From NCBI GenBank assembly GCA_003153435.1, contig PLYR01000048.1:31307-74751 (forward strand): a stretch of DNA of 43,445 nucleotides, read 5' to 3'. Both the position numbers and the translations under genes were made by a program. Of the stretch, positions 1,246 to 37,543 are shown in pieces. The DNA is from Bacteroidota bacterium. GTDB taxonomy: Bacteria; Bacteroidota; Bacteroidia; Palsa-965. Each line of letters begins with the position of its first letter. The first letter of the stretch is position 1. The notes under the pieces are model-generated. The model did not search any database. It was not told where the DNA came from and saw only the letters and a program-made list of their open reading frames with translations.

Positions 1246-2904
1246 ATGTTTCAACCGAAGTTATTTACTACTTTAAAAAATTATACCCGGAAACAATTTT
1301 TCTCCGACCTTATCGCTGGCGTTATTGTAGGTATAGTGGCACTCCCTCTGGCCATTGCCTTTGCCATTGCCTCCGGAGTGTCTCCTGAAAAGGGATTGTT
1401 CACTGCCATCGTAGCTGGATTTCTGATCTCGGCCCTGGGTGGAAGCCGGGTTCAGATAGGGGGCCCTACAGGCGCTTTCGTGGTCATTGTGTATGGCATT
1501 GTTACTCAATATGGAATTGGGGGACTGACCATAGCAACCCTCATGGCAGGAGTCATGCTCATCATCATGGGTCTGGTAAAACTGGGCAATGTCATTAAAT
1601 ACATCCCGCATCCTTTGATCGTTGGATTCACCGCTGGCATTGCATTGATCATATTCTCTTCTCAGATCAAGGATTTCCTGGGACTGAAAATGGGAGCTGT
1701 ACCGGCCGATTTTCTTCAAAAATGGAAAGCTTATGCTACACATTTTGATTCCACCAATTATGCATCCCTACTGCTGGCAGCCGGCACCACTCTTCTCGTT
1801 TTTGTATTTCCGAGAATAACCGCACGGATTCCTGGCTCACTGGTGGCTATTGTCCTTTGCACATTTGCTGTACAGTACTTTCACCTGGATGTTGACACCA
1901 TTGGAAAAAGATTTGGTTCTATCCCGTCTATGATTCCTATGCCAGTTTTACCGCCAATCTCTTTTTCTACACTCCAGCAACTGATTCAGCCGGCTTTTAC
2001 CATTGCCCTTCTGGGAGGGATTGAGTCCTTACTCTCGGCAGTGGTGTCTGATGGAATGATAGGAGCTAGCCATCGCTCCAATACGGAACTCATCGCCCAA
2101 GGCATCGCTAATATCGCCTCTTCTCTGTTCGGAGGGATTCCGGCCACAGGTGCCATCGCCCGTACAGCTACCAACGTGAAAAATGGTGGGCGTACACCGG
2201 TTGCAGGCATCGTTCATGCCATTACACTTCTGCTGATCATGCTCTTCGTAGGAAAATGGGCTGTGCTCATCCCCATGCCTTGTCTTGCCGGAATACTTGT
2301 GGTGGTGGCGTATAATATGAGTGAATGGAAATCCTTTCTAGCTCTTTTAAAGGGCCCAAGAGGAGATGCCATTGTCCTTGTAGCCACTTTTCTTCTGACT
2401 GTACTCGTGGACCTAACGGCAGCTATTGAAATAGGCATGGTCCTAGCCGCCTTTCTCTTCATGCGCAACATGATGCAGATAAGTAAAGTGGATATGGTTT
2501 CGAGTCACGAAGACCTGGAAGAAGACAAAGACGAAAAAGCTATTTCCAGATATCACGTTCCGAAAGGAATTGAAGTATTTGAAATCACGGGTCCCCTCTT
2601 TTTCGGTGCAGCTTATAAATTCAAGGAAAGGATTTATTCCTTGAAGGACAGTCCCCGGGTCCTGATCATACGCATGAGGGCTGTTCCGGTAATTGATGCA
2701 ACCGGTCTGCACACGATAAGGGAGGTGGCCAAATATGTAAAACGCTTTGGAACAATTCTTATTATTTCGGGAGTGCAACCCGGAGTGTATGAGGAGCTTG
2801 AAAAATCGGGACTGCTTATAAAAATAGGAAAAATGAATGTGCTGTCCGACATTGACGAGGCTTTGAAAAGGGCAAACATCCTGCTTACAGAGGAAAGCAC
2901 CTGA
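1246..2904 (+). CDS. SulP-family inorganic anion transporter with STAS domain
   Basis: This 552-residue inner-membrane protein has the usual SulP length and layout. Residues about 20-410 form the membrane transport domain with many hydrophobic helices, starting with an FFSDLIAGVIVGIVALPLAIAFAIA-type first helix pair (shown only in part: DLIAGVIVGIVALPLA). Residues about 440-545 form a cytoplasmic STAS domain; the site equivalent to the phosphorylatable DSSG loop of SpoIIAA-type anti-anti-sigma factors reads D484-A-T-G487, so it carries no serine at the usual position. SulP carriers move sulfate, bicarbonate or other anions; the substrate cannot be told from the sequence. No carbonic-anhydrase gene is adjacent. 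It is followed by a convergent receptor gene 46 bases away. Confidence 0.95.
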   Translation: MFQPKLFTTLKNYTRKQFFSDLIAGVIVGIVALPLAIAFAIASGVSPEKGLFTAIVAGFLISALGGSRVQIGGPTGAFVVIVYGIVTQYGIGGLTIATLMAGVMLIIMGLVKLGNVIKYIPHPLIVGFTAGIALIIFSSQIKDFLGLKMGAVPADFLQKWKAYATHFDSTNYASLLLAAGTTLLVFVFPRITARIPGSLVAIVLCTFAVQYFHLDVDTIGKRFGSIPSMIPMPVLPPISFSTLQQLIQPAFTIALLGGIESLLSAVVSDGMIGASHRSNTELIAQGIANIASSLFGGIPATGAIARTATNVKNGGRTPVAGIVHAITLLLIMLFVGKWAVLIPMPCLAGILVVVAYNMSEWKSFLALLKGPRGDAIVLVATFLLTVLVDLTAAIEIGMVLAAFLFMRNMMQISKVDMVSSHEDLEEDKDEKAISRYHVPKGIEVFEITGPLFFGAAYKFKERIYSLKDSPRVLIIRMRAVPVIDATGLHTIREVAKYVKRFGTILIISGVQPGVYEELEKSGLLIKIGKMNVLSDIDEALKRANILLTEEST

Positions 2905-2950
2905 GACCTCTTAATTTTGTACGGTTTCTTACCCCGGGAACAGTATAATC

Positions 2951-5374
2951 TTATCCCACCCTCTTTTGTAAGTCGTCCCCCACATTCTTAAACTGACCAT
3001 GTTTGTTGGTGCCTGGCCCTCCGAACGTGTAACGCATCCTCAGGTACACATATCTGGAATCGAAGTTGTAGAAAGAAATTAAGTGCTGGTCCTGGAAATC
3101 AACCACTACATGCTGGGCTTGGGTGTAAAGCACATCGCTGGCACTGAGGGTACACTTCAACCGGTCTTTCAAAAAGCTCCTGGAAAGACCCAGGCTTAAA
3201 TCTCCCGAAGGCTGAATGAGGAAGATGGAATAAACCATAGGGCTCTGATACCACCCCGACACTTCTAGTTTAAAGCCCTGTTTCAATAAAAAACTTTCTG
3301 TAACATTCAGGTTATATACCACATTGCTTCGGTCCAGATCTGCACCCGACAAGGTAGCCAGGTAATGGTTGTAATTGACGACCACACTCACGGAGTTTGT
3401 CCACCATTTAAAGGGTGTAGCTGCCCAGGTAAGACTGAGATAACCATTATCTATTGTATTCATGTTTGCGGTGGTCTGACTCATTACTCCTGTGGAATCA
3501 GTTAGATGGGTAACATGCGCAATCCCAAAGAAGGTCCGGCTGGCACCGATACTTGCAAACAGATTACTCTTATACGAATAGGTCAGATCTCCTCCATCAA
3601 CAACTTCAGGCTGCAAGAATGGATTTCCTATGCGATAGAGGTAATGATCAATATAGAAGTAAAATGGATTCAGATCATTGTAACCCGGCCTGTTGAGTCT
3701 TCTGAACAAGCTTCCCTGCAGGGAGTGTTTTTCTGAAACGGTTTTAGAAACAAACAGGGTAGGAAAAAGTTGTATATAATTATTTTGATGATCCTGATGA
3801 GTGGTTGGAGAGTTTCCATCAGAAATGGTTTGCTCTGCTCTTAGTCCTGCCTGGACCTGCCACTTCCCTAAGTCAGCGGTGCCATCCAGGTATGCAGCGT
3901 TTATTAGTTCTGAATAATTGAAAGAATTGGTTCGTGTATAATCTTTCTGCCAAGCACCGGAAGGGTCTTGCACTTCAAACAACAAATCGTTTCCGGAATT
4001 CACGAAACTACTTTTTATTCCTGCTTCCATCCGGTATTTTTTGCGAATGGCACGGGTATAGTCCACTTGCCCGACATAGATTGCTATGTCTGAGTTGGGA
4101 TAGCTCCTTTGAAACTCTGGGGGAGCCATTTCTGTTCCGGTGCTATTCAGGAAATGCAGATTGTAGTTTTCGGTGGCACGGTTCTGATAATTCATGTAGT
4201 CGAGGCTGATATTAATCTCACTCCCGGAAGTGTCAAGTTTATGATTCAAAAAGCAACTGATGCTCCCGTGTTTGAATGTAGATTCGGTCTGGTTGATTTG
4301 ATGCAGGATGCTTCCCAAACCCGAATCCACTTTCACAATATTGGTTCTGGAATCCAGGATAATATTCCGGTCTAATGAAGAACCATCTATATGGATTCCC
4401 AGAGTGGTTGTCTGGTTCGGAAACCATTCAAAGCCTGTTTTAACATTTTGAGACCTCAGCTGAAATCTCAGGTCTACCAGCTGGCCGAAAGTGGTGGTAT
4501 GTGTTCCATTCATTACGGTGCGATTCACTCCTTTTGTTTCATCACGAGAAGGCGTGGAGTAGTCATATTTTCCGAAGACAGAGAACTTCGAATTGCTGTA
4601 GCCGAGATTTAGTCCTCCTTCTTCACGAGTGGTATTTCCCTGACCCAAACCACCCGAAAGCGAACCAGTTAATCCTTCTTTTTGTTTCTTTTTGGTGACA
4701 ATATTGATGATTCCAGAACTGCCTTCGGCATTATATTTAGCAGGGGGAGTGGTCATCATTTCAATTTTCAGGATATCGCTACCAGACATGCTCATGAGGT
4801 AATCCCGCAGCTGGTCGGATGAAAGATAGGTAGGTTTCCCATCCAGGTATATCTGCACTCCGGATTTTCCTTTCATCGAAACTAAACCATCTTGATCGAT
4901 ACTAACGCCTGGCGCTTTCTCGAGTACCTCGTATACGGATCCACTTAGTTTCACGGTACTGTTTTCAAGGTTCATCACCAGCATGCCTGGCTTCTGGGCA
5001 AAAAGAGGTTGGGTGGTAACGATATTTACTTGCTGGAGCTCGGAAGCGGGCAGAAGGATCATATCATTAAGTAGGGTAGGTTCTGCTCCTCCCAGGGTGA
5101 AAGGACCCATATACTGCTTGCGGAAGCCCAACAAAGAAAATGAGACCAGATATTCACCAGGGATCACATCCTCAATGTCATACTTACCATCTGCTTGACT
5201 AAGCACTCCTTTTTTCAGGGAGGAGTCCGTTGCACTGAGCAGTAGTACGTTGACGAATTCCAGTTCTTTGTGGTCTACATCCAATACTTTTCCGGAAAGA
5301 GACCCGTTCCTGGTTTTAGCCGAAAGCAGGAATGGTATGAAGAGAAGGACGGTAAAGAAGGTAGCAGCTCTCAT
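2951..5374 (-). CDS. Outer-membrane beta-barrel receptor (TonB-dependent-receptor-like, OMP_b-brl_3 type)
   Basis: This protein of about 807 residues has a signal peptide (MRAATFFTVLLFIPFLLSA), then a carboxypeptidase-regulatory-like domain of about 80 residues (SGKVLDVDHKELEFVNVLLL), then a plug-like domain (LEKAPGVSIDQDGLVSMKGK, followed by YLDGKPTYL and a SSGIINIVTKK strand). A long C-terminal beta-barrel follows with alternating aromatic residues, ending in a YTFGG strand and a short tail. This order is typical of the Bacteroidota outer-membrane protein beta-barrel family related to TonB-dependent receptors. I start it at the ATG at 5374, which begins the signal peptide; an in-frame ATG at 5404 would add ten polar residues before it. 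No SusD-like partner is adjacent, so a glycan-uptake role is not supported. Confidence 0.88.
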   Translation of the reverse strand: MRAATFFTVLLFIPFLLSAKTRNGSLSGKVLDVDHKELEFVNVLLLSATDSSLKKGVLSQADGKYDIEDVIPGEYLVSFSLLGFRKQYMGPFTLGGAEPTLLNDMILLPASELQQVNIVTTQPLFAQKPGMLVMNLENSTVKLSGSVYEVLEKAPGVSIDQDGLVSMKGKSGVQIYLDGKPTYLSSDQLRDYLMSMSGSDILKIEMMTTPPAKYNAEGSSGIINIVTKKKQKEGLTGSLSGGLGQGNTTREEGGLNLGYSNSKFSVFGKYDYSTPSRDETKGVNRTVMNGTHTTTFGQLVDLRFQLRSQNVKTGFEWFPNQTTTLGIHIDGSSLDRNIILDSRTNIVKVDSGLGSILHQINQTESTFKHGSISCFLNHKLDTSGSEINISLDYMNYQNRATENYNLHFLNSTGTEMAPPEFQRSYPNSDIAIYVGQVDYTRAIRKKYRMEAGIKSSFVNSGNDLLFEVQDPSGAWQKDYTRTNSFNYSELINAAYLDGTADLGKWQVQAGLRAEQTISDGNSPTTHQDHQNNYIQLFPTLFVSKTVSEKHSLQGSLFRRLNRPGYNDLNPFYFYIDHYLYRIGNPFLQPEVVDGGDLTYSYKSNLFASIGASRTFFGIAHVTHLTDSTGVMSQTTANMNTIDNGYLSLTWAATPFKWWTNSVSVVVNYNHYLATLSGADLDRSNVVYNLNVTESFLLKQGFKLEVSGWYQSPMVYSIFLIQPSGDLSLGLSRSFLKDRLKCTLSASDVLYTQAQHVVVDFQDQHLISFYNFDSRYVYLRMRYTFGGPGTNKHGQFKNVGDDLQKRVG

Positions 5375-5579
5375 GGTGTTTGAGTTTTGATAAAAGTAGA
5401 ACATCGTGGCCGCCTCTTTTTGAATTATATGGTAAATGGTTTATTTATGCCGACGAAAGGAAATGGAAGAATTCTAATTTGTTAATAAACCTTAAAATGC
5501 CCGGATTAGATCTTTCTGCTTTGAATTTTAACACCCGTTGTGGAATCTTTGGGTTGGATTTAAAATTATTCTAAAAATG

Positions 5580-5632
5580 TTGCGTAACTCAAAAGTTACG
5601 TATATATTTGCGTAACTTTAAAATTACATATA
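5580..5632 (+). promoter_or_regulatory. Promoter with two operator palindromes for the SRPBCC-ArsR operon
   Basis: A Bacteroidota promoter is readable: TTG at 5580-5582, a 20-base spacer, and TATATTTG at 5603-5610. The spacer holds an inverted repeat CGTAACT-N4-AGTTACG at 5583-5600. A second, less perfect copy (CGTAACT-N4-AATTACA) lies at 5611-5628, directly after the -7 box and just before the ATG at 5633. The centres are 28 bases apart. ArsR-type repressors bind such palindromes, so the ArsR protein encoded in the operon probably represses its own promoter. The palindromes are seen directly; who binds them is inferred. Confidence 0.75.
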
Positions 5633-6058
5633 ATGGAAAAAGAAATTAAGCACACCTGGCACTTTGATAAGTCGCCTGAGGTAGTTTGGGACTATCTCAC
5701 CAAACCGGAGCTATTAGAACAATGGCTTATGAAATCGGATTTTAAACCTGTACTTGGCCATAAATTCAGGTTCACAAGCCCATCGGGATGTGTACATGAC
5801 TGCAAGGTCCTGGAAATAAAACCATTTACCAGGCTTTCCTACTCCTGGCAAAAAAAATCAGATAAAGATGGAAAGCCTTTTGATTCTTTGGTAGTATGGA
5901 CTCTGGTTCCTAAAGGGAAGGGAACAGAACTGGAGATCGTACATAACGGCTTTACTGCCCTGGAAGACTATGTAGCCCATGACAAAGGTTGGGCATACCT
6001 TGGGAACCAGTTCATGGAACTCTTAAACAAAATGGAATATGGCAATTCAAAGGTTTGA
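5633..6058 (+). CDS. SRPBCC (AHSA1/START-like) domain protein
   Basis: This 141-residue soluble protein has the hallmarks of the AHSA1 (activator of Hsp90 ATPase homologue 1) branch of the SRPBCC fold: an opening strand, then SPEVVWDYLTKPELLEQWLM, a G-x-x-F-R-F strand, a VLEIKPFTRLSYSW segment and a C-terminal helix with GWAYLGNQFMELL. These proteins form a helix-grip hydrophobic pocket; most have no known ligand. It is the first gene of an operon, with its last 20 bases overlapping the ArsR gene start. Pairing with ArsR is very common in this family, and the SRPBCC protein may be a target of, or effector-binding partner for, the repressor. Confidence 0.9.
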   Translation: MEKEIKHTWHFDKSPEVVWDYLTKPELLEQWLMKSDFKPVLGHKFRFTSPSGCVHDCKVLEIKPFTRLSYSWQKKSDKDGKPFDSLVVWTLVPKGKGTELEIVHNGFTALEDYVAHDKGWAYLGNQFMELLNKMEYGNSKV

Positions 6059-6371
6059 TGCATTTCAGGTAATTGCGGATCCGAACCGGAGGCATATGAT
6101 GCAATTGCTTTCCAGGAAGAGCATGACCATAAATTCTTTAGCAGAGAATTTTGATATGAGCCGTCCTGCCGTTTCAAAGCATATAAAAATTATGTGCGGC
6201 GCCGGCTTTATTTCTATTAAAGACATCGGCAGAGAACGACACTGCATCTTAAAACAAGATGGCTTTAATGAATTGCAGCACTTTATTGACTTCTTTGATA
6301 AATTCTGGTTGAGCAAGCTCGAAAAACTTGAAGCATTATTAAACAATAAAACGAAAGAAAATGAACACTAA
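6039..6371 (+). CDS. ArsR-family winged-helix transcriptional regulator
   Basis: This 110-residue regulator has the ArsR winged-helix: FQVIADPNRRHMMQLLSRKS, then a helix-turn-helix around SLAENFDMSRPAVSKHIKIM, then a wing (GAGFISIKDIGRERHC) and a C-terminal helix. It lacks the ELCVCDL-type cysteine metal site of ArsR/SmtB metal sensors, so it probably does not sense metals through that site. Its start lies inside the preceding SRPBCC gene (20-base overlap) and its end overlaps the next SRPBCC gene by 11 bases, so the three are translationally coupled. It probably binds the paired palindromes at 5583-5628. Confidence 0.92.
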   Translation: MAIQRFDAFQVIADPNRRHMMQLLSRKSMTINSLAENFDMSRPAVSKHIKIMCGAGFISIKDIGRERHCILKQDGFNELQHFIDFFDKFWLSKLEKLEALLNNKTKENEH

Positions 6372-6795
6372 AAATTTTCAAAAAACAATTACTGTAAACG
6401 CTTCAGCAACAGAAGCGATGAAAAAAATAGCTCAGGTTAATCTGTGGTGGGCTAAAAACCTTAAAGGCAAAGCTGAAAAATTGAATGATGACTTTGCCGT
6501 TCACTTTGGCGATACCTTTGTTAAGTTCCAAATCAGCGAATTAGTGCCAAACAAAAAAGTAGTTTGGAAAGTAACGGATTGTAATCTGCATTGGATAAAT
6601 AACAAGAAAGAGTGGAACAACACCGAGGTAGCTTTTGAACTCTCCGGAAACGGAAGCGCCACACAAATTGTATTCACTCATATTGGTCTCGTGCCTGGTG
6701 TTGAGTGTTACAATGATTGCGAAGCAGGGTGGAACGGTCATATTACAAATAGCCTGGTAAAGTTCATCAATGAGGGCAAGGGAATGCCAGAATAA
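6361..6795 (+). CDS. SRPBCC domain protein
   Basis: This 144-residue protein is the third gene of the SRPBCC-ArsR-SRPBCC operon. It shows the helix-grip pattern: opening ITVNASATEAMKKIAQVNLWW, a central ISELVPNKKVVWKVTDC strand pair, a VAFELSGNGSATQIVFTH strand pair and a C-terminal helix after GWNGHI. It is less like the AHSA1 consensus than its neighbour at 5633, with only distant similarity, so the two probably handle different ligands. It starts within the last codons of the ArsR gene and is followed 36 bases later by a strong terminator hairpin. Confidence 0.85.
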   Translation: MNTKNFQKTITVNASATEAMKKIAQVNLWWAKNLKGKAEKLNDDFAVHFGDTFVKFQISELVPNKKVVWKVTDCNLHWINNKKEWNNTEVAFELSGNGSATQIVFTHIGLVPGVECYNDCEAGWNGHITNSLVKFINEGKGMPE

Positions 6796-6831
6796 TTTAA
6801 GGAAGCAGTGAGTTCAGAACAATTTGGAAAA

Positions 6832-6861
6832 AAAAGAGCAGGGCAATAGCCCTGCTCTTTT
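6832..6861. terminator. Bidirectional intrinsic terminator hairpin
   Basis: A perfect 13-bp stem (AAAAGAGCAGGGC, loop AATA, GCCCTGCTCTTTT) is flanked by A-runs on the left and T-runs on the right. It lies between the convergent genes ending at 6795 (plus) and 6887 (minus) and can terminate both. Confidence 0.9.
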
Positions 6862-6886
6862 AAATGCAATGCATTGTTGCAGGTAC

Positions 6887-7324
6887 TCAGAGCTTTTCGG
6901 CTATGGTCTTTATTTCATGAAGAACCGTTTCCCAGTTTTTAGCACTGTGCTCCTGGGCTTCTTTCGAATCGTTGTGATCCTGGGTAAGAGTGAGTTCCGT
7001 TTTACCATCATTAGACTTTAATTCGCAGGTAATTACTGCATAATTTTCAGGAAGATCTGCTTTACCAGACATAGAACTCAGATAGGTGTACTTCAGCAAT
7101 TCACCTGATTTGCTCTTCAGGATTACACCTTTGTCAGTATAAGATTTCCCTTCATAAGAGCCTTTCCAGGTAATAGTGCTTCCTTCTTTCCAATCGGAAA
7201 CAGCATCGGTATTAAATAAATATTGCTTGATAAGCTTAGGATCGGTCAGTGCCTGCCAGACCTTGTTTGGCGAAGCATGGACTGTTACTGTTGCTGAAGC
7301 CAGATGATCGTCTTTAGTTTTCAT
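6887..7324 (-). CDS. SRPBCC (AHSA1-like) domain protein
   Basis: This 145-residue protein has an AHSA1-type SRPBCC fold: SATVTVHASPNKVWQALTDP, LIKQYLF, a W-K-E-G-S segment before ITWKGSY, then an L-K-Y-T-Y strand, and a C-terminal NWETVLHEIKTIAEKL helix. It faces the SRPBCC-ArsR operon across the shared terminator but is transcribed on its own. A plausible -7 box reads CAAAGATA on the plus strand at 7364-7371 (TATCTTTG on the coding strand). Upstream of that lies a 13-base direct repeat (7395-7425) that could be an activator site. Confidence 0.9.
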   Translation of the reverse strand: MKTKDDHLASATVTVHASPNKVWQALTDPKLIKQYLFNTDAVSDWKEGSTITWKGSYEGKSYTDKGVILKSKSGELLKYTYLSSMSGKADLPENYAVITCELKSNDGKTELTLTQDHNDSKEAQEHSAKNWETVLHEIKTIAEKL

Positions 7325-7394
7325 GTAATTTATATTTATGAATGGATTGCTTCATTCAAAAAACAAAGATAGGGGCCTTCAGGTCAGGAAAAGA

Positions 7395-7425
7395 AATATT
7401 CGTCAGTAAATGAATATTTGTCGGT
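7395..7425. repeat. 13-base direct repeat upstream of a minus-strand SRPBCC gene
   Basis: AATATTCGTCAGT at 7395-7407 recurs as AATATTTGTCGGT at 7413-7425, matching at 11 of 13 positions with an 18-base period. It lies 24 bases or more upstream (in the minus sense) of the likely -7 box of the gene starting at 7324, where an activator would bind. The stretch also contains an AAATATTC/GAATATTT inverted repeat (7394-7401, 7412-7419). Function is inferred. Confidence 0.45.
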
Positions 7426-7449
7426 AGGTACCTGTTTTTGGTAGCCCTG

Positions 7450-9336
7450 CTATTTTATGATTACTTTAAAAACCCGTTGATATTCTGCATTTCCCACTCG
7501 CACAAAGTAAGGAGCCGGGGCTATGCCATTCACATTTACCCTGGTTTGAATAGCATTCACGACAGGCTTCCCAGTCTGACTACTCAACTGCTTGCCGACA
7601 AGGTCAAAAAAATCAACCTGGACTGGAGCATCAGATGGAAGTTTAGTAGCAATCACATTTAAATAATCGTCAGTCTGATAGATCTTGAATTCAGAAAGAT
7701 CAATTGGGTTTGTGATACCTGTGGGGCTGGTAATCGCAAATGAAAAGATTCGGGTAGCTTCCGATCCTGCGCCATCATATTCATTTGTATTCCAAAAAGT
7801 GGTATTATCTGAAGGGTCCAGAGTCATTTCGGAATAGTCGCCCCACCGATTGCCACAGCTCACAGCAGGGCTGGTGCCGGAGACAGCTGAAGTTTCAGTA
7901 CCTGTCATCATTCCTGGTGTGTCAGAAGATAATCTCCCGGTGTATCGTATTCCCGGATAAACGGAGCTGCCCGATACACTGTAAGAGAGCCCGATGCTTC
8001 CATTTTGATCCATACATATACTTCCATTCCATCTGCTCAGTCCATCGGCAGGAGCATAGGTTCCTTGCTGATAAATACTCCAGGACTGACCAGCTGCTGA
8101 TTGTCGTAGTTCATACCACCTGATTCCCGAAACCAGTCCTCCGGTGTTTACAGAATTACAAAGCACCACCGAATTATAACCAGTAAACACCATGAAGGGA
8201 GTTCTGAAATTGAAGGTTCCATCGAGTGCATCGAGACTATTTGCGGCACCTGGCTGAGAGATTTCCTGCTCCGTTCCTCCCGTGAAATAAGCATTAAATG
8301 TAGCAGGGGAGAGAGAATCGGAAGCCGTAACGACGAGTGTTTTGGCGGTAGTGTCATGAACAAGTTTGTAAAGAATAATTTTATCAGAATACCCTCCTGA
8401 ACTCAGGTTCTGAAAAAACACAAGATACTCCGGCGAACCATAAGGTGGCAATGCAGAAGCATCACAGTCGAGTGTCTTGGCAGATGAATATAAAGAGTTA
8501 TTTCCAGCAAAATAATAAGGAGAGGAAGGAGTATGGGTAAGGATCATTCCTGCCGATTGCTTTCCCGCAATCATTCTGGTTCTGTCCAGGACTACCACTC
8601 CTTCAGGATCAAACTGTCCGGTCATATAATAACCATCACTCCAGATAGAGAATTTAGGATAATCGGGATAGTTTTGAGTGGTCCAGGCGGCCTGAGAGAA
8701 GTTATATACGTAATAAGCTCCGGTAGCGTCCCCGGTTTTTGAAATAGCCACTGAAAATCCACATGGAGCCGTGGTAGTCTGAAACTCCGTAATCACCCAT
8801 CTGTCAGCGAACTTATCATACAATACAATAGGATCACCATCATCATTCGGGATATGCGGAAAAAGCGAAACCAGGTCAATAATTCCTGTGAGTGTGGTTC
8901 CTGTTTTACTAAAAATCTGGTAGGACGAATTAATCGCTTGAACATATTGAGTGAGGCCCACGGCTCCATCCGGATCCGGAGGGCAACCATTGCTGGTTGG
9001 TGTATTCTGTCCGTCAAAATTAATTAGAGGAGCAGATAATCCGAGCGTACCTTGCACCGTTTGCCGAATAGGATCAACAGTTTCTGGTTTCTTTTTAAAG
9101 TCCTTAGGTTTTGGGCGTCTTGCTTCGCGCGCTAATTCAAGCTGCTCATGATGTGCAGCTGCAAGGGCTCGTTGAGCATCGGTTTGTAACGGCATATCTC
9201 TTACCGGAATGGATTCATAAAATCCAGTATTTAACGTATAGATTCCTCCATCTGTTTTATTACCAGAGGTCCCTTGAGCAAATGAAGAAGCAGAAAGCAG
9301 TATTCCTGCAAACCAAAGCATGCATTTATTTTTCAT
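7450..9336 (-). CDS. T9SS type A cargo protein, large secreted beta-rich protein of unknown function
   Basis: This 628-residue protein starts with a signal peptide (MKNKCMLWFAGILLSASSFAQ) and ends with a Por-type T9SS sorting domain of about 80 residues: FKIYQTDDYLNVI, a VDFFDLVGKQL strand, and closing PYFVRVGNAEYQRVFKVIIK. It should therefore cross the outer membrane by type IX secretion. The main body (residues about 90-540) is Gly/Ser/Tyr/Trp-rich, with conserved-looking segments such as NGCPPDPDGAVGLTQYVQ, DRWVITEFQ, and CGNRWGDYSEMTLDPSD, which recur in a widespread family of secreted proteins without assigned function, probably beta-propeller-like. It stands alone; the nearest co-directional gene is 125 bases downstream. 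Confidence 0.85.
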   Translation of the reverse strand: MKNKCMLWFAGILLSASSFAQGTSGNKTDGGIYTLNTGFYESIPVRDMPLQTDAQRALAAAHHEQLELAREARRPKPKDFKKKPETVDPIRQTVQGTLGLSAPLINFDGQNTPTSNGCPPDPDGAVGLTQYVQAINSSYQIFSKTGTTLTGIIDLVSLFPHIPNDDGDPIVLYDKFADRWVITEFQTTTAPCGFSVAISKTGDATGAYYVYNFSQAAWTTQNYPDYPKFSIWSDGYYMTGQFDPEGVVVLDRTRMIAGKQSAGMILTHTPSSPYYFAGNNSLYSSAKTLDCDASALPPYGSPEYLVFFQNLSSGGYSDKIILYKLVHDTTAKTLVVTASDSLSPATFNAYFTGGTEQEISQPGAANSLDALDGTFNFRTPFMVFTGYNSVVLCNSVNTGGLVSGIRWYELRQSAAGQSWSIYQQGTYAPADGLSRWNGSICMDQNGSIGLSYSVSGSSVYPGIRYTGRLSSDTPGMMTGTETSAVSGTSPAVSCGNRWGDYSEMTLDPSDNTTFWNTNEYDGAGSEATRIFSFAITSPTGITNPIDLSEFKIYQTDDYLNVIATKLPSDAPVQVDFFDLVGKQLSSQTGKPVVNAIQTRVNVNGIAPAPYFVRVGNAEYQRVFKVIIK

Positions 9337-10463: not shown

Positions 10464-10826
10464 CTAAGGGCAAACAGTAATTTCTTTTATGGTCACACCT
10501 GGGCAACAGGAGACGGAATGTCCGTCACAAATCATGATGCAATCACAAAGCACTCCCGGTGCCGGTTCGTAGAGGATAGTCAGACGTTGTCCGCTGTGGA
10601 TCGAAACACCAAAATGTGTTTTCACAGATGCGGAGTCGGCAATCAGACAAGGTTCTGTTCCGTCGGGTATGAAAAGATATCCGCAATGGCTTTTCAGGAC
10701 CGTAGCGTTGCCACACTTTATGTTTCTAGGTGGATTGATGTTCTTACTCAGATTTTCCCGGTTACAGGACCCGAGCAGAAGTAAGAGCTGCATAGATGCA
10801 GTCAGGAGCAGAAATTTGGTTTTCAT
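10464..10826 (-). CDS. Cysteine-rich small lipoprotein
   Basis: This 120-residue protein begins with a lipoprotein signal (MKTKFLLLTASMQLLLLLGSC, lipobox LGSC), so Cys21 is probably lipidated. The mature part carries nine further cysteines, clustered near the end (LCDCIMICDGHSVSCCPG), suggesting a disulfide-knotted periplasmic or surface domain or a metal site. I do not recognise a family. It lies 99 bases downstream of another small lipoprotein on the same strand and may belong to the same transcript as the sigma-factor module further upstream. Confidence 0.75.
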   Translation of the reverse strand: MKTKFLLLTASMQLLLLLGSCNRENLSKNINPPRNIKCGNATVLKSHCGYLFIPDGTEPCLIADSASVKTHFGVSIHSGQRLTILYEPAPGVLCDCIMICDGHSVSCCPGVTIKEITVCP

Positions 10827-10925
10827 AAATGTTTAGATTAAGTGTTCTTTTAATAAGACATGCATATACTGAATAAGCTGCATCCCAATGAAAATTATTT
10901 TTGTTTCTTCAAATCACTTATATCA

Positions 10926-11375
10926 TTACTGCCTTTGCATCCTTCGGTACTTCTTTCCACTGTAATTAGCAGAAGGGTATGTAAGCAGAAATAAACCGGG
11001 TGCTTTGTATTGAGCATGTGAAACGTCTTTGAAAGGATTTAGGGGGCCAATCGTCGGTTTAAAGGTCGAGTCTGTATAAATCCCATTGATGTAAAGGCTG
11101 TCGGGAGTAAGACTGAACTTGGCTGCCATATAGTACTGATAAATCAATACATCCACTCCCCGGGTCTCGTGAATGAAAACGGAATCGGTTCTGAAGACCA
11201 GGTTCCAGATGCTATATGTGTCTATTGCCATAAGACTGGTATCTTTTTCAATCCAATGACCACTCAACTCAGCAGCAGTGATTGGTTGTGCTGGGGCAGG
11301 GCCTGGAACTGCGTTTCGCTTGCAAGAGGAAAAAGGGAGAGCAGATAAGAAGAAAAGGAACAGGAGTCGTTTCAT
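10926..11375 (-). CDS. Small lipoprotein of unknown function
   Basis: This 149-residue protein has a short lipoprotein signal (MKRLLFLFFLSALPFSSC, lipobox FSSC) and a Pro/Ala linker, then a domain beginning with LSGHWIEKD. That opening and the later strand pattern (IWNLVFRTDSVFIHE, FSLTPDSLYI) resemble lipocalin-like small Bacteroidota lipoproteins, which usually read 'L.G.W....' at this place. It sits 97 bases downstream of the sigma-factor-linked membrane protein, in the same direction, so it may be a target or accessory of that system. Function unknown. Confidence 0.72.
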   Translation of the reverse strand: MKRLLFLFFLSALPFSSCKRNAVPGPAPAQPITAAELSGHWIEKDTSLMAIDTYSIWNLVFRTDSVFIHETRGVDVLIYQYYMAAKFSLTPDSLYINGIYTDSTFKPTIGPLNPFKDVSHAQYKAPGLFLLTYPSANYSGKKYRRMQRQ

Positions 11376-11472
11376 GGGATCAGGTTTTGGAAAGTATTAA
11401 GTCTCTTTTATAATAAGACTTACTCCTTTCTCAAACGCTGCATCCTTTCGAAAACTATATTATTTCTACTAA

Positions 11473-12891
11473 TCAGAATTTATAAAGAAGGCTACCTTCC
11501 AGTCCAATACCATAGCTGTGCTGTCCCAGGAAATAGGAATGATCAAAAATGGAACTGATTCCATAAAAAGTTTTGGAACAGAGTTGTACCTGGAAATGCG
11601 TACCGAAGTCTTTCGCAACCCCGAGGTTCAGTTCAGGAACAAAAACCCATCTATTCAAAGGAGTGCCGCGGTAATTTTGTGCATATCCGTACTCGTAAGG
11701 GTTCCTGACAAATACGGTGGTAGCATCGACCAAATAGTTCGACTGCAAGGCCAATCCCATCTTGAGTTGTACATACCGGGTGGGAATTAACCTATTTCCT
11801 TCCAGAGAAAGGTTCAGGTATTTAAATTTATTCTGGTAGAGTGGTGAGGAAGCTGTATTTGATATCACTTGCACAACGGTGAAGTTAGGATTGACACCCC
11901 CTCCACCTGTGTTTACATAAGTGACCGAGGTGGTATTACCAGGTGCCTCCACCGGACGTTCCTGATAGTTGTATTGAAGATACCCTGCTCCGAGCAGGAA
12001 TTCCCATTGGTAATTGTATAGCAATCCTGCTTTTATTCCGGTTCCGTAATTGATAACACTAGCTTTGGAATTATTTCGGGCAGAGATATAGTTATCGGAG
12101 AAAGCATTCTGGTTTGGATCGGATGAAGGCTTACTTTTTAAAGCAAAGGAAGTAAGCTGTGGGGTAAAACAGATGCCTGCCACATACTGAATAATTTTCC
12201 TCGGTTTTTCTTTCTCCGGAGATACAGGAACTGAGGCTGAAGCAGTCGCTGTGCTGCTTACTGTTTTCGCTGTATCGTGAATGAGGTTAATCACCGGAGC
12301 TGCTTCCTGTTTTACAAGAGATGTTGATTCTGTTTTAAGATCGGAAGTCAGAGAAGTAAGTTGTTGCTCTTTCACCGGGGATGGATGTGTCTCGGAAGAC
12401 ACCATAGGAGTGGTTGTTTCAATCGTCTGGGATGAGCCTACTGGAGAAGAGGAAGGCGCTACCGGAGGTTTCTGGTTGGTTGCCTTGTCGGAAACGACCG
12501 GTAATGAATGGTGTGAAACAACTGAATAAGAAGCGGGGGGTGCATCATGTTTGGTTTCGGGCAGAGATGCTGACGAAGTGGTTGTGGATGAGGGAATGAC
12601 CTGACCTGAAATTTTGGGTGTGTTAGTTTTTACCTCCGGGAGGTTTTTGAAATCGGAAAGAATTTGAACAGAATTGTTTTCTTCTTTGGAAGAATGAGAA
12701 TGGAGAAGAACGAGTATCCCGGATACGACAAACAGACCCGCGAACAGGTAAAAGAAAACCAAACGGCGTTTCTTCTTCTTTTCCTGTTCCAACTTTTGCA
12801 TGGTTCGATCGAAGGATGAAATCCCAGGTTGGATCTCCACTCCTTCTTGCGATTGCCGGATAAGGCTATCAATGATTTCGTCGCTTTTCAT
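11473..12891 (-). CDS. Putative dual-membrane-spanning anti-sigma factor (inner-membrane helix plus outer-membrane barrel)
   Basis: This 472-residue protein has an unusual layout. Residues 1-42 are polar and Lys-rich with no signal peptide (a cytoplasmic domain), residues about 43-63 form one hydrophobic helix (LVFFYLFAGLFVVSGILVLL), residues about 70-230 are a Ser/Thr/Pro/Lys-rich linker, and residues about 235-472 look like an outer-membrane beta-barrel with alternating strands (YQWEFLLGAGYLQYNY, YVQLKMGLALQSNYL, YGIGLEGSLLYKF at the end). Such single polypeptides reaching both membranes, encoded next to ECF sigma factors, have been described in Bacteroides as dual-membrane-spanning anti-sigma factors. 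It begins 2 bases after the stop of the sigma-factor gene, so the two are co-translated. Binding of its N-terminus to the sigma factor is inferred from this arrangement. Confidence 0.75.
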   Translation of the reverse strand: MKSDEIIDSLIRQSQEGVEIQPGISSFDRTMQKLEQEKKKKRRLVFFYLFAGLFVVSGILVLLHSHSSKEENNSVQILSDFKNLPEVKTNTPKISGQVIPSSTTTSSASLPETKHDAPPASYSVVSHHSLPVVSDKATNQKPPVAPSSSPVGSSQTIETTTPMVSSETHPSPVKEQQLTSLTSDLKTESTSLVKQEAAPVINLIHDTAKTVSSTATASASVPVSPEKEKPRKIIQYVAGICFTPQLTSFALKSKPSSDPNQNAFSDNYISARNNSKASVINYGTGIKAGLLYNYQWEFLLGAGYLQYNYQERPVEAPGNTTSVTYVNTGGGGVNPNFTVVQVISNTASSPLYQNKFKYLNLSLEGNRLIPTRYVQLKMGLALQSNYLVDATTVFVRNPYEYGYAQNYRGTPLNRWVFVPELNLGVAKDFGTHFQVQLCSKTFYGISSIFDHSYFLGQHSYGIGLEGSLLYKF

Positions 12892-12893
12892 GT

Positions 12894-13460
12894 TTATCCG
12901 ATGATGTAATTAGGTGCTTGTTCTGAATTTGCCTGAATGCGTGTCTTCAGTAACTTCATCAGCACCTGCCTGGCCCGGGCGTATTGAGAGCGGCTGGTGC
13001 TTTCACTGATATTCAGCTTCTGGGCAATTTCCGCATGAGAGAAATTTTCCAACAAAAAAAGATTGATGACAATGCGGTAGCCCGGAGAAAGTTCGTTCAG
13101 GCAATCGGTAATTTCCTGAATGCTGATTTGCCGGTGCTCCGATTCCGTAAAATCAATGTTCTCCACAATACTCAGGTCGCGCTCGAAATAAATCTTATTT
13201 TTTTCCTTCAATGCAGTGAGTGCTTCATTAACGGTAATCCGTTTGGCCCAGCCTTCAAAGCTACCTTCCCCCCTAAAGCTTTTCAGGTTCATGAAGATTT
13301 TCACAAAAGCATCCTGCATGACATCTTCCGCGAGATCCCGGTCCTGCATATAGCGCATACAGAGTCCCAATAGTTTAGGTGCCAATATGTTGTATAGATT
13401 AGCCTGGGCATTTTTGTCCTGCCGTTTACACAAATCCAGAAGCTTTATAAAATCTTCCAA
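12894..13460 (-). CDS. ECF RNA polymerase sigma factor
   Basis: This 188-residue protein is a sigma-70-family ECF factor. Sigma region 2 is at about residues 20-85 (LCMRYMQDRDLAEDVMQDAFVKIF is the -10-binding helix region; I quote only DLAEDVMQDAFVKIF). Region 4 is at about 118-170 (LSPGYRIVINLFLLENFSH, then the helix-turn-helix EIAQKLNISESTSRSQYARA). The only possible start is a TTG at 13460: the in-frame stop upstream is six codons away and no ATG lies before region 2. A plus-strand CAAATGTA at 13498-13505 is a plausible -7 box. The membrane-spanning protein follows at 2 bases and is the likely anti-sigma factor. Confidence 0.93.
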   Translation of the reverse strand: MEDFIKLLDLCKRQDKNAQANLYNILAPKLLGLCMRYMQDRDLAEDVMQDAFVKIFMNLKSFRGEGSFEGWAKRITVNEALTALKEKNKIYFERDLSIVENIDFTESEHRQISIQEITDCLNELSPGYRIVINLFLLENFSHAEIAQKLNISESTSRSQYARARQVLMKLLKTRIQANSEQAPNYIIG

Positions 13461-13643
13461 GTCAAGCCTTTCTATTCATAAATACATGATCTTCATGCAA
13501 ATGTACTCATAACCAAGCTTTCCACTTCGTTTTTAGGCCATCCTATTTAAAAGACTCCCTATTAGTTAAAACGCTGCATAGCTTTGAAAATTATTTTTTG
13601 AAAAGCAGTCAATATGGAATCATGAAAAAAAAATCTTAAATAT

Positions 13644-13692
13644 TTGCGTAGCCAAACAACTACGCATATATTTGTAGTCAAATGACTACGTA
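13644..13692 (+). promoter_or_regulatory. Promoter with two operator palindromes for the second ArsR operon
   Basis: TTG at 13644-13646, a 20-base spacer and TATATTTG at 13667-13674 form a Bacteroidota promoter. An inverted repeat TGCGTAG-N8-CTACGCA at 13645-13666 fills the spacer. A second, perfect palindrome GTAGTCA-AA-TGACTAC lies at 13674-13689, starting at the last base of the -7 box and ending three bases before the ATG. The layout copies that of the 5580-5632 promoter. Self-repression by the ArsR protein starting at 13693 is inferred. Confidence 0.78.
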
Positions 13693-14013
13693 ATGAACTT
13701 AAGACGTGATGTTTTTCAGGCCATAGCTGATCCAACCAGAAGAGCCATTCTGCTCCTGGTGACTTCCCAGGCGATGACAGCAGGAGCCATAGCCGCAAAC
13801 TTTGACACGGCACGACCAACCGTTTCAAAACATCTGCAAATACTTACAGAATGTGAAATTCTGAAACAGGAACAAAATGGACGGGAAATCTACTATCATA
13901 TCAATGCAAAAAAAATGAAAGAGGTAGCGATTTTTATTGAGCCATTCCGCAAGATGTGGGACGATCGGTTTAACAAATTGGAAAGTATCATGAAAAAGCA
14001 TCTAAACAAATAA
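13693..14013 (+). CDS. ArsR-family winged-helix transcriptional regulator
   Basis: This 106-residue ArsR regulator opens [20 protein letters not shown], has its helix-turn-helix at [20 protein letters not shown] and a wing at [15 protein letters not shown], then a C-terminal helix with [17 protein letters not shown]. It has no cysteine metal site, as for its paralogue at 6039, which shares the A-D-P-x-R-R, RP-x-VSKH and GRE motifs. It leads a run ArsR-SRPBCC-DoxX-YdeI with tight spacing, and two palindromes lie just before its start. Confidence 0.93.
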
Positions 14014-26803: not shown

Positions 26804-26953
26804 GGATCAAATGTAAAAAATATTTAACCCGCTGATCAAGGGAGCTTCAGATAGATATCACCCAGTTTTCATCATTCCTCTAATACCTTATCTTCTCCTG
26901 TTTTTCATCCTCCTTTTATAAAAAGTTAATGCCTGTAATCTACTGAATTTGAC

Positions 26954-26961
26954 TATATTTG
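26954..26961 (+). promoter_or_regulatory. -7 box very close to the start of the SBBP-repeat protein
   Basis: TATATTTG at 26954-26961 is a perfect -7 box and lies only 5 bases before the ATG at 26967. No TTG lies at the right distance upstream. If it is used, the transcript would begin at or next to the start codon. Confidence 0.4.
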
Positions 26962-26966
26962 GTAGT

Positions 26967-29900
26967 ATGTCCAGGGGCGTAAATCAGTTAATCACAGTCC
27001 TTTTCCTGCTCCCTTTTTTTCCCGGGGCAACAGATCTCATTTCTGCACAAGAGAAGATACCTGGTCAACTTCGTTTTGAGGAAAACAAAAATCAATACGA
27101 TCCTGTTGTTCTCTATAAAACGGATCTGCTCAAAAGCGGCAAACTATTCTTCGAAAAAAATACGTTCACTTATTTGTTTGTCAATGCCGATGAGATTAAT
27201 CAGCTGCACCATCCCTGGAGTGCTGGGGTAGGAGTACCTCCATCCGGCATCATTCATTATCATTGTTTCAAAACGAAGTTCCTGAACAGTAACCCTAACG
27301 TACAAGTTCAGCCATCCAATGCATTTCCGGAATACAGAAACTACTACCTCGGAAATGATTCGACCAGGTGGGCTCCGGGTGTGAGGCTCTTTGCGGCCAT
27401 CACCTATGCTGATCTTTATCCTTCCGTCGACATGCAGGTATATAGCACTGGTTTTAACCTTACTTATGATTTTACAGTGAACGCGGGAGGAGACCCCTCT
27501 GCCATCCAAATGAGTTATTCGGGAACGGATAAGATCTTTCTCCATGGAGGAATTCTTCATGTGGAAACATCCCAGGGAACCGTATTGGAGCAAAAACCAG
27601 TCGCCTATCAGATCGTTGATGGGAAAAAAATAGGAATCGAATGTAATTATGTACTCAAAGGATTAATCTTAAGTTTTGAATTCCCCAGGGGATATGATTC
27701 GAATGAGCCCCTGATCATTGATCCAACACTGATCTGTTCCACCTACACAGGATCAACAGCTGATAATTGGGGGTATACGGCTACGTATGATGCAGCAGGA
27801 AATATTTATTCCGCGGGGATTGCAGCAGCTAATGGTTACCCGGTTACGGTCGGAGCGTTTCAGACGAACTTCGGAGGAGGAGGGTCTGGAGGAAATTATT
27901 ATCCTTTTGATATTTCGATAACCAAATACAATTCCACAGGATCAGCCTTACTTTATTCAACCTACCTCGGAGGAAGCGATAATGAACAACCCCAAAGTCT
28001 GGTAGTGGATAATGCTGGTAACCTCTGTGTCATGGGAAGGAGTTATTCCTCCAACTATCCGGTCACAGCCACAGCTTTTCGGACGGTCAAAAGCGGACAG
28101 GCTGATATCGTGGTCACGAAATTCAATCCGGCTGGCACTGCCCTTATTGGGTCTACTTATATCGGCGGAAAAGATGAAGACGGGGTAAATATTGCGGCTA
28201 ACTGGAATATCTGGAATTCTCTCAAATACAATTACGGGGACGATGGAAGGAGCGACATCATTACGGATAATGCCGGCAACTGTTATATAGCCTCTTCCAC
28301 ACAGAGTAGTAATTTTCCGGTGACCAATGGTGCATTCCAACAGGTATTCGGAGGAGGTACTCAGGATGGATGCGTTTTTAAACTGGACAATACGCTCTCG
28401 AACCTGCTTTGGTCTACCTATCTTGGAGGTAATGGAGATGATGCCTGTTATGGTCTTGCCCTCGGCTCGGGGAACACCGTCTATGTTACCGGAGGAACCG
28501 GAAGCAACAATTTCCCAACCACTCCGGGGGTCTTACAACCAGCTTATTTGGGAGGGATCAGTGATGGATTTGTGACGCATCTTGATAATTCCGGAGCTGT
28601 AGTTCTTCAATCAACTTATTTAGGTACATCCGGATACGACCAGAGTTATTTTGTGCAGGTTGATCCAAACAATAATGTTTATCTCTACGGACAAACTTCG
28701 GGAGCTTACCCCGTTACTGCCGGAGTATACTCCAACCCAAACAGTGGGCAGTTCATTCATAAGCTGAATCCCTTATTAAGTACGACCGTTTACTCTACGG
28801 TGTTCGGGGCAGGGGTAGGAATCCCTGATATTTCACCAAGTGCATTTATGGTTGATACCTGCGAAAATGTCTACACTTCCGGGTGGGGTGGAACCTGTAT
28901 CCCTTATGGTAGTAATGGAAGTACAAACGGCTTACCGGTCACCTCTAATGCATACCAATCTACCACCGACGGTTGTGACTTTTATTTCTTTGTACTGAAG
29001 AAAAATGCTGCTTCACTCTGGTACGCCACCTATTTCGGGGGACCTGGAGGCTCTGATGAGCACGTAGATGGAGGTACCAGCCGTTTTGATAAAGACGGGG
29101 CCATCTATCAGTCGGTCTGTGCAGGATGTGGTGGTCACTCTTCTTTCCCAACCACTGCTGGTGCCTGGTCTACAACCAACAAAAGCACGAATTGCAATAA
29201 TGCTGTTGTTAAACTGGCTTTCGAACTGGTTAACCTTCGCGCACAAGCAAAAGCAGCTCCGTCTGATACTATTTGTGTAGGAGGATCGGTTCAGTTTGTG
29301 AACAGCAGTCTGGGGGCTAAAAATTATATCTGGAACTTCGGCGACGGCACTCCGGTAGATACAAACCGGGCACCATCACATATGTATAGTCATCTCGGCA
29401 CCTATACGGTTTCCTTGATTGCCACTGATTCTTCCAGTTGTAAGATTTCCGATTCCACCCATCTCATCGTCTATGTCATTCCGCCTCCGGTAGTGAATCT
29501 GGGGAATGACACCACCTTGTGCGGAGCCGTAAGTATGGTGCTGAATGCAGGCAATCCCGGAGCCCAATATCTCTGGAGTACCGGGAATACATCATCTACA
29601 TTGCATATTACCGCTATAGGATCATATTGGGTAAGAGTAATGAGGGGCCAGTGCTTTAATTCTGATACCATCCATATCAGTGCATTAGCAAAACCTAAAC
29701 TCGGAAATGACACTTCCCTTTGTCAAGGCACCTCACTTATACTGAATGCGGGGAATACCGGAAGCACCTATAGCTGGAGTACAGGAGCCTCCACCCCCAC
29801 CATTTCAGTAAATACCATGGGATCCTATTGGGTAAAGGTTACTTCCGGATGTTCCATCCTGAGTGATACCATTCATGTTACTTTTCTTCCGGCTCCTTCT

Positions 29901-30593
29901 GTAGATCTGGGAAGAGATACCCTGCTTTGTCCGAATGCTGCAATTACGCTTTCTGCTGGTAATGCCGGATCCACTTATTTGTGGAGTAACGGATCCACCT
30001 CTCAGACACTTCCGGTTTCGACTTCGGGCACCTATTGGGTGAAAGTTTCAAACGCCGGTTGTTCCAGGGCTGATACGATAACTGTTTCGAAGCTTCAGAA
30101 TCCGAACCTGGGTCCTGACCAGTTTCTATGCGATATTCAGACTCCCGTCTTGCTGGATGCAGGTAAGATTAAAGGAGCAAGCTATCATTGGTCTAATGGA
30201 GATTCTTCTCAAACCATTCACGCCTCTCAGCCCGGGCTGTATTGGGTAGTAGTAAAGGCAGCGAACTGTCAACTCTCCGACTCCATTGTTATTGATGGAG
30301 GGATTGGAGGCCCCCCTGGTGTGTATATCCCGGATGCTTTTTCACCGAATGGTGACGGACTGAATGATATGTTCTTTGCCAAAGGGATTGATGTGACTTC
30401 CTTTGATATGAAAATTTTTAACCGTTGGGGGGAACTGTTTTTTGAATCAACGGATATCAATAAAGGATGGGATGGAACTGTGAATGGAAAGCCGGTTCCC
30501 AATGATGTGTATGTCTGGGTAGTGGATTATACGAATATTTGTACAGGTAAAAGAAAAGTACATAATGTGGGTCATGTAATGGTATATAAATAG
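26967..30593 (+). CDS. T9SS type B cargo protein with SBBP, PKD and Ig-like repeats
   Basis: This protein of about 1208 residues has a signal peptide, an N-terminal beta domain of about 230 residues (DUF7948-like, with GQLRFEENKNQYDPVVLYKT near its start), then SBBP beta-propeller-like repeats (YLGGSDNEQPQSLVVDNAGN, then YIGGKDEDG, YLGGNGDDACYGLALGSGN). A PKD domain follows (IWNFGDGTPVDTNRAPSHMY), then four Ig-like repeats at 29485-30299, and a gliding-motility-associated C-terminal domain (DAFSPNGDGLNDMFF, then FNRWGELFFES, GWDGTVNGKPVPNDVYVWVV). It should be exported by T9SS and anchored or released at the surface. The TTG at 26949 is rejected as start because it lies across the -7 box. An adhesive or matrix role is inferred. 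Confidence 0.92.
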   Translation: MSRGVNQLITVLFLLPFFPGATDLISAQEKIPGQLRFEENKNQYDPVVLYKTDLLKSGKLFFEKNTFTYLFVNADEINQLHHPWSAGVGVPPSGIIHYHCFKTKFLNSNPNVQVQPSNAFPEYRNYYLGNDSTRWAPGVRLFAAITYADLYPSVDMQVYSTGFNLTYDFTVNAGGDPSAIQMSYSGTDKIFLHGGILHVETSQGTVLEQKPVAYQIVDGKKIGIECNYVLKGLILSFEFPRGYDSNEPLIIDPTLICSTYTGSTADNWGYTATYDAAGNIYSAGIAAANGYPVTVGAFQTNFGGGGSGGNYYPFDISITKYNSTGSALLYSTYLGGSDNEQPQSLVVDNAGNLCVMGRSYSSNYPVTATAFRTVKSGQADIVVTKFNPAGTALIGSTYIGGKDEDGVNIAANWNIWNSLKYNYGDDGRSDIITDNAGNCYIASSTQSSNFPVTNGAFQQVFGGGTQDGCVFKLDNTLSNLLWSTYLGGNGDDACYGLALGSGNTVYVTGGTGSNNFPTTPGVLQPAYLGGISDGFVTHLDNSGAVVLQSTYLGTSGYDQSYFVQVDPNNNVYLYGQTSGAYPVTAGVYSNPNSGQFIHKLNPLLSTTVYSTVFGAGVGIPDISPSAFMVDTCENVYTSGWGGTCIPYGSNGSTNGLPVTSNAYQSTTDGCDFYFFVLKKNAASLWYATYFGGPGGSDEHVDGGTSRFDKDGAIYQSVCAGCGGHSSFPTTAGAWSTTNKSTNCNNAVVKLAFELVNLRAQAKAAPSDTICVGGSVQFVNSSLGAKNYIWNFGDGTPVDTNRAPSHMYSHLGTYTVSLIATDSSSCKISDSTHLIVYVIPPPVVNLGNDTTLCGAVSMVLNAGNPGAQYLWSTGNTSSTLHITAIGSYWVRVMRGQCFNSDTIHISALAKPKLGNDTSLCQGTSLILNAGNTGSTYSWSTGASTPTISVNTMGSYWVKVTSGCSILSDTIHVTFLPAPSVDLGRDTLLCPNAAITLSAGNAGSTYLWSNGSTSQTLPVSTSGTYWVKVSNAGCSRADTITVSKLQNPNLGPDQFLCDIQTPVLLDAGKIKGASYHWSNGDSSQTIHASQPGLYWVVVKAANCQLSDSIVIDGGIGGPPGVYIPDAFSPNGDGLNDMFFAKGIDVTSFDMKIFNRWGELFFESTDINKGWDGTVNGKPVPNDVYVWVVDYTNICTGKRKVHNVGHVMVYK
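29485..30299 (+). repeat. Four tandem Ig-like repeats within the T9SS type B protein
   Basis: Four units of about 67 residues each share the pattern L-G-x-D-T-x-L-C near the start, L-x-A-G-N-x-G-S-x-Y-x-W-S-x-G in the middle and G-S/T-Y-W-V-x-V near the end, with a serine-aspartate-T/S-I closing strand. They are clear at the protein level, diverged at the DNA level. Confidence 0.85.
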
Positions 30594-37101: not shown

Positions 37102-37543
37102 ATAACCCCTTCTTTAGGAAGTTTATTCAAAATCATCTTATTATACGGCATATTCCTTCCCGGGTTTCGGGCATTTTGCTCTATTCGAAACCTAAAAATT
37201 ACCACCCTAAATTGGTAGAATCTAGCCTTTGTAATATCATAATTAGTTAATTATCAGTATAATATCAAGTTGTCATTGCAATAATGATGCGATAAACCGG
37301 GTAACCGAAGGCTTAATATAAGATGGGTTCGTTTATTGTAAATTGGTTAAAGTCAAATCTTTAAGTTATATTTGGTTTAAGCAAAATTCAACGAATACTC
37401 CGTTTTTATTATTTGAGTTTTTTTAAAAGATACAGCAAGGTCAGCCTTGAAAGAGATTGTTGTAGTTGTCAGAGTAAATTGAGTTCTCAGTGCACACACA
37501 CTGCTTCGCTCTACCGGTTTACACACACCGTAAAAAAGTAACA
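37102..37543. other. Long intergenic region before the adhesin gene
   Basis: This 442-base AT-rich stretch has no credible coding signal. It contains the promoter at 37343-37374 and, if that promoter is used, a leader of about 165 bases before the ATG at 37544. A short inverted repeat TCATT-N5-AATGA is at 37273-37287. No T-run hairpin terminator for the kinase gene was found. Confidence 0.6.
37343..37374 (+). promoter_or_regulatory. Consensus promoter for the SprB-repeat adhesin
   Basis: TTG at 37343-37345, a 21-base spacer, and TATATTTG at 37367-37374 match the Bacteroidota primary sigma consensus. The first gene downstream is the adhesin at 37544, giving a leader of about 165 bases. Confidence 0.7.

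Follow-up and report, generated by a model that had tools for sequence, protein, structure and literature searches.

A predicted ECF sigma factor and dual-membrane-spanning anti-sigma factor module with a clade-specific promoter in a Bacteroidota genome

The locus raises the question of whether one protein can carry information from the outer membrane to an ECF sigma factor. Within the window, by which we mean the whole 43,445-nucleotide stretch of Bacteroidota DNA that was analysed, the minus strand encodes in order a sigma factor (12894 to 13460; 188 amino acids, TTG start), a 472-residue anti-sigma factor (11473 to 12891) and two lipoproteins (10926 to 11375 and 10464 to 10826). The sigma factor is a clear member of the ECF group (Sigma70_r2, 4.8e-15 and Sigma70_r4_2, 4.5e-16 in Pfam; TIGR02937, 4.9e-26 in NCBIfam), and the open reading frame list agrees with a first-pass annotation, made from the DNA alone, that the barrel gene begins 2 bases past the sigma stop. 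A comparable arrangement has been described as the Dma family, whose members begin with a sigma-binding domain and continue through a helix and a long disordered tether to a C-terminal barrel, with an ECF21 sigma gene adjacent (PMC13088901). Reo has been reported to span five compartments and probably to sense outer-membrane stress (PMC13114119). The 472-residue protein had been likened to Dma in the first-pass annotation, and by architecture the comparison is apt: all structural features of the described family (PMC13088901) are present, and according to reading frames and domain matches the ECF sigma gene adjoins that of the Dma-like protein.

The first 43 residues of the protein are charged and lack a signal peptide, and the only hydrophobic segment in the hydropathy profile, an inner-membrane helix at residues 44 to 62 (12706 to 12762, minus strand), directly follows the basic stretch KKKKRR, as expected from the signal-less, charged N-terminus and single transmembrane helix proposed earlier. 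We modelled the protein with AlphaFold2 using an alignment of 28 proteins of the same architecture with the window protein placed first, and obtained helices at residues 5 to 14 and 24 to 67. These are followed by about 158 disordered residues (approximately 70 to 227; 12211 to 12684, minus strand), which have pLDDT values mostly below 50 and consist to 41% of Ser, Thr and Pro, thereby bearing out the linker of roughly 160 residues rich in these amino acids. The remainder of the protein (residues 234 to 472, ending in Phe; 11476 to 12192, minus strand) is an eight-stranded outer-membrane beta-barrel with strands at residues 234-253, 279-292, 296-311, 351-370, 375-397, 415-429, 433-443 and 455-471 and pLDDT reaching 97 in blocks. 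Comparison with PDB folds returned OmpA (Z 15.3), NspA (Z 14.9) and OmpW (Z 13.9), and a profile of the barrel, derived from 27 relatives with the window protein left out, matched residues 190 to 472 at 2e-14; besides the anti-sigma factor, only the ordinary OMP gene at 9672 exceeded the threshold of this profile among the window frames. The barrel nature of the C-terminal 240 residues had been named beforehand as one of the points on which the dual-membrane reading could fall, and it held. Pfam gave no family for the 472-residue protein up to an E value of 1, including no FecR domain, and NCBIfam and PDB sequence searches gave nothing useful; a match to an Ig-blocking protein (0.018) was discarded because it covers the low-complexity tether. 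The protein thus laid out very probably reaches from the cell interior to an outer-membrane barrel.

The opposite end of the protein belongs to a recognizable family of predicted anti-sigma domains. Partners of related sigmas have in common an N-terminal pattern of approximately D-x-L-F-R ... E-x-x-P-S-x-x-W/F-x-x-I/V-E-x-x-L, followed by a basic stretch and a helix. A profile of this domain from 83 relatives, again with the window protein left out, matched residues 1 to 42 (DSLIRQSQEGVEIQPGISSFDRTMQKLEQEKKKKRR; 12766 to 12891, minus strand) at 7e-5, which was its only significant match among 484 window frames. The window sigma and anti-sigma genes lie in different frames and are not joinable, and contact with the sigma was therefore modelled on a paralogous pair of the same genome (L040), in which both genes are in frame, as a fusion via stop read-through. 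The fusion model has a pLDDT of 89 and a pTM of 0.85, and its two anti-sigma helices reach pLDDT 91-97, as against only 66-83 for the counterpart of these helices in the window protein when no sigma was included in the model. With both sigma domains superposed together, the model lies 4.6 Å from SigW-RsiW over 152 residues, 5.4 Å from CnrH-CnrY over 149 residues and 4.8 Å from RpoE-NepR over 143 residues, compared to approximately 20-27 Å for RNA-polymerase-bound ECF sigmas with both domains aligned. The modelled sigma therefore appears to be arranged as in the closed complexes with RsiW and CnrY, and not as when bound to the polymerase. Because the fusion resembles sigma/anti-sigma complexes and differs from polymerase-bound sigmas, the confidence and domain arrangement of the paralogue lend indirect support to sequestration of the sigma by the short cytosolic domain. 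At family level, the suggestion that the N-terminus folds onto the sigma was likewise supported, as the paralogue's domain folds confidently beside its own sigma.

A search with the full-length anti-sigma factor recovered no relatives in 59 genomes (58 relatives, at an E value of 1e-3, and its own) or in a contig collection, and orthologues could be reached only via searches with the sigma, the anti-sigma itself being too divergent. The closest orthologous pairs, from two Bacteroidetes MAGs (L231 and L232), have the same architecture, with 65% and 60% identity in the sigma and 31% and 27% in the barrel, respectively; the N-terminal 73 residues of the L231 anti-sigma are 37% identical to those of the window protein. 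L231 carries two tandem barrel-type anti-sigma genes (5552-6931 and 7155-8402, plus strand) behind one sigma gene. In a tree built from 90 sigmas, that of the window forms a group with L187 and L188 (support 99/84), and a group that also takes in L189 and L194 (98/90); all five members of this clade have a barrel-type partner. Across the 90 related pairs, 88 partners have the anti-sigma domain and 42 are of the barrel type. Barrel-type partners cluster on the sigma tree (14 changes versus 30.3 with shuffled labels), and partner types in general are clustered yet switch often (20 changes overall versus a shuffled mean of 36.7). Many relatives of the family retain the cytosolic domain and helix and have no barrel; among 64 partners scanned against Pfam, 24 carried OMP_b-brl_2 and 15 the CHU_C type IX secretion signal. 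That one type of anti-sigma head is found attached to a barrel, to a type IX secretion signal or to neither suggests a modular wiring of the envelope to transcription. The window genome itself encodes three barrel-type pairs (the window pair, L039 and L040) and a fourth pair, L044, that lacks a barrel, and barrel partners were present in 41 of the best 80 loci of the contig collection, including one from Alistipes sp. dk3624.

Several partners depart from the common layout. The CHU_C-ended anti-sigmas, with the same cytosolic domain and helix, often carry the signal behind PKD domains (L016, L017, L018, L022, L025, L041, L051, L052 and others). They may report on type IX secretion, and a literature search returned no description of such proteins. 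In L084, a sigma of 371 residues that has a helix and a tether-like tail of its own (2219-3334, minus strand) is followed by a separate OMP-like gene (1316-2209, minus strand), a layout that we read as Dma3-like with the barrel split off. The anti-sigma partner of L031 (371-1477, minus strand) has a C-terminus that by eye resembles a plug-type domain of TonB receptors. A 421-residue sigma reading frame of the window genome (C140) was considered as a Dma3-type fusion and rejected, since its C-terminal extension showed no helix-tether-barrel layout by eye.

Upstream of the sigma gene and of both lipoprotein genes we identified the element TTTTC-N6-ATGCAGC-N17-GTCTT with identical spacing (13550 to 13590 for the sigma/anti-sigma operon, 11414 to 11454 for the gene at 10926-11375 and 10854 to 10894 for that at 10464-10826; all minus strand, the latter two being exact matches), and we predict these to be ECF promoters. 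A scan of 4.02 Mb for exact copies of the core TGCAGC-N17-GTCTT gave four, three of which fall within 2.7 kb of the window; the fourth sits inside a coding sequence and was rejected as a promoter. Having been derived from the window, the element was then sought in looser form in freshly fetched loci and was found upstream of the sigma genes of L187, L188, L189 and L194, the four other members of the clade. Of the 88 regions upstream of sigma genes, five contain ATGCAGC-N17-GTCT, and these are exactly the window's clade of five; the shuffles contain none. The spacing between TGCAGC and GTC is 17 in five regions, 18 in two and never any other value from 8 to 26. For L231 and L232, the element precedes lipoprotein/OMP genes leading into the sigma and anti-sigma genes. 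Since a clade-specific promoter is common to the sigma and both lipoprotein genes, the nucleotide patterns support autoregulation of the sigma together with a local lipoprotein regulon, of which both lipoproteins are likely members, as had been suspected from their position. When one mismatch is allowed, the genome holds more sites than a reversed control gives, and a wider regulon is therefore possible. A related form, GGCAAC-N17-GTC, was found 5' of sigma genes of other clades in 10 regions (L004, L005, L008, L013, L015, L029, L044, L045, L052 and L062; shuffle mean 0.06), nearly all of which have an anti-sigma without a barrel. Adjacent to the sigma promoter, a palindromic array at 13638-13693 (TTGCGTAG...CTACGCA, TGTAGTC...GACTACG) lies just 5' of an ArsR-type regulator gene at 13693, between that gene and the promoter, and is a probable operator for the ArsR-type regulator.

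Both predicted regulon members (149 amino acids at 10926-11375 and a cysteine-rich 120 amino acids at 10464-10826, both minus strand) have a signal peptide and a lipobox-like Cys, and neither matched a known family in Pfam. Lipoproteins of this kind recall NigD, which belongs to the EcfO-Reo regulon in Phocaeicola (PMC13114119) and through which, as NigD1, Dma1 of Bacteroides affects vesicles (PMC13088901). The lipoprotein at 10464 has one good homologue (E 6.7e-9), located directly upstream of a sigma/barrel anti-sigma pair in L184, a locus from a different family. An initial match of this lipoprotein to the NigD profile (92% probability) was set aside as it leaned on the common signal peptide; with mature sequences the probability was 13.5% (P 0.002, shuffles reaching no better than 0.2), and 78% against a short NigD_N-type lipoprotein of L211. 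Hence there is a hint, at the level of sequence profiles, of a weak resemblance to the OB-like N-domain of NigD, to which this lipoprotein may possibly be kin, and functional equivalence to NigD would be a guess. Three small lipoproteins of similar general pattern stand behind the barrel anti-sigma gene of L192, and the OMP gene at 9672 of the window showed no similarity to OMP genes adjoining the orthologous pairs.

We propose that the window encodes an autoregulated ECF sigma/dual-membrane-spanning anti-sigma module, to which we assign a probability of roughly 0.8. Residues 1 to 42 would hold the sigma closed and inactive at the inner membrane, where the helix at 44-62 would anchor the anti-sigma, the approximately 158 disordered residues would bridge the periplasm, and sensing would fall to the barrel in the outer membrane. 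A change in the outer membrane leaving the barrel uninserted, damaged or bound would relieve the hold, and the freed sigma would then transcribe its own operon and the two neighbouring lipoprotein genes from ATGCAGC-N17-GTCT, with transcription of the operon also restoring the anti-sigma. Transfer of a signal from the outer membrane to the sigma through one protein is supported as a structural and regulatory hypothesis. In B. thetaiotaomicron, the most strongly raised genes of a dma2 mutant include the sigma gene and genes next to it (PMC13088901).

That the barrel is an unrelated OMP fused by chance or through a sequence error, with the anti-sigma function elsewhere or absent, could be argued from the lack of a Pfam match and of a full-length relative at E 1e-3 in the 58 related genomes, but this is scarcely credible given that genes of the same architecture stand directly behind the sigma in L187, L188, L189, L194, L231 and L232, and that the architecture recurs in 42 of 90 related pairs; the orthologues contradict it. 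The pair might instead be the orthologue of the EcfO-Reo-NigD stress system, with which it shares its architecture; a Reo-like pair adjoining NigD (L213, L214) is matched by both our barrel and N-terminal profiles, the small lipoproteins recall NigD, and the NigD-linked EcfO-like sigmas lie inside the same wider tree of 90 sigmas. However, the window sigma groups with L187, L188, L189 and L194 and away from the NigD-linked L213 and L214, which serve as stand-ins for EcfO, the Reo-like loci lack the ATGCAGC-N17-GTCT promoter, and no NigD_N (PF12667) domain of the window genome passes the family cut-off. Because of the separate sigma clade and a genome without NigD, the window pair does not look, from its sequence relationships, like a Reo orthologue, and we regard this origin as very unlikely.

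Two further alternatives concern the sensing step. The anti-sigma could be cut in its tether, the barrel and an inner-membrane stub then acting apart and sensing being due to the periplasmic stub or its proteolysis. A long disordered Ser/Thr/Pro-rich tether would be an easy protease target, and many barrel-less relatives still have the cytosolic domain and helix; yet the clustering of barrel partners on the sigma tree (14 versus 30.3 shuffled) and a five-member clade that is entirely barrel-type suggest that the fusion matters, and the Reo and Dma relatives are presented as continuous (PMC13114119, PMC13088901), making cleavage rather improbable. The other alternative is a special case of the autoregulated dual-membrane module, in which failure of the barrel to insert leads to degradation of the anti-sigma and the pair reports on OMP assembly with no specific ligand. 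The protein ends in GLEGSLLYKF, a last strand of alternating pattern closed by an aromatic residue, as is typical of an OMP assembly signal, and the barrel is strongly divergent in sequence with its fold kept. In addition, the Phocaeicola Reo pair reacts to envelope-damaging toxins (PMC9308784). Long variable loops such as residues 312-350 could equally bind a ligand, however, and we consider the assembly version possible but tentative. With similar reserve, we speculate that the clade constitutes a separate outer-membrane-integrity circuit, in which the anti-sigma would restrain the sigma only as long as the anti-sigma's barrel is inserted and undamaged. This circuit would drive a promoter type of its own and a small, locally encoded group of envelope lipoproteins; it would have an evolutionary history separate from that of Reo/NigD and would operate alongside at least two further barrel-type pairs of the cell.

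Barrel anti-sigmas of this kind have already been described and the window pair is not a first; it can be placed with the Dma/Reo proteins of Bacteroides and Phocaeicola, in a clade of its own and with its own promoter. Compared by description, Dma1/Dma2 with Das1/Das2 of Bacteroides thetaiotaomicron are alike in their sigma-binding domain, helix, tether, barrel and adjacent ECF sigma, whereas effects on vesiculation and PULs are reported for them and need not hold for the window pair, whose promoter type and lipoproteins are its own. EcfO-Reo of Bacteroides fragilis and Phocaeicola vulgatus (PMC9308784, PMC13114119) similarly has an anti-sigma extending from the cytosol to a surface barrel and lipoproteins in its regulon, but the window sigma falls in another clade than the sampled NigD-linked EcfO-like pairs, with another promoter and no NigD. 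The CnrY-CnrH and RsiW-SigW complexes (PDB 4cxf, 5wuq) resemble the L040 paralogue fusion model in having a short anti-sigma domain and a closed sigma; unlike the window anti-sigma, CnrY and RsiW extend no further than the inner membrane or the periplasm and have no outer-membrane barrel. Signalling by FecI, FecR and a TonB receptor also links an outer-membrane protein to an ECF sigma, but uses three separate proteins where the window has one, without a FecR domain. Work on barrel-bearing anti-sigmas has so far dealt with gut Bacteroidales, and here they are common and diverse across the class. Added here are a clade-specific promoter, a local regulon and modular C-termini, and with the precise promoter and small regulon of one clade, what barrel anti-sigmas sense becomes testable with reporters.

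Elsewhere in the window, the genes at 37490-42373 and 26949-30593 (plus strand) encode large surface proteins that carry PKD domains and CHU_C type IX secretion signals, one of them with SprB repeats, and a type IX secretion system is therefore expected in this organism.
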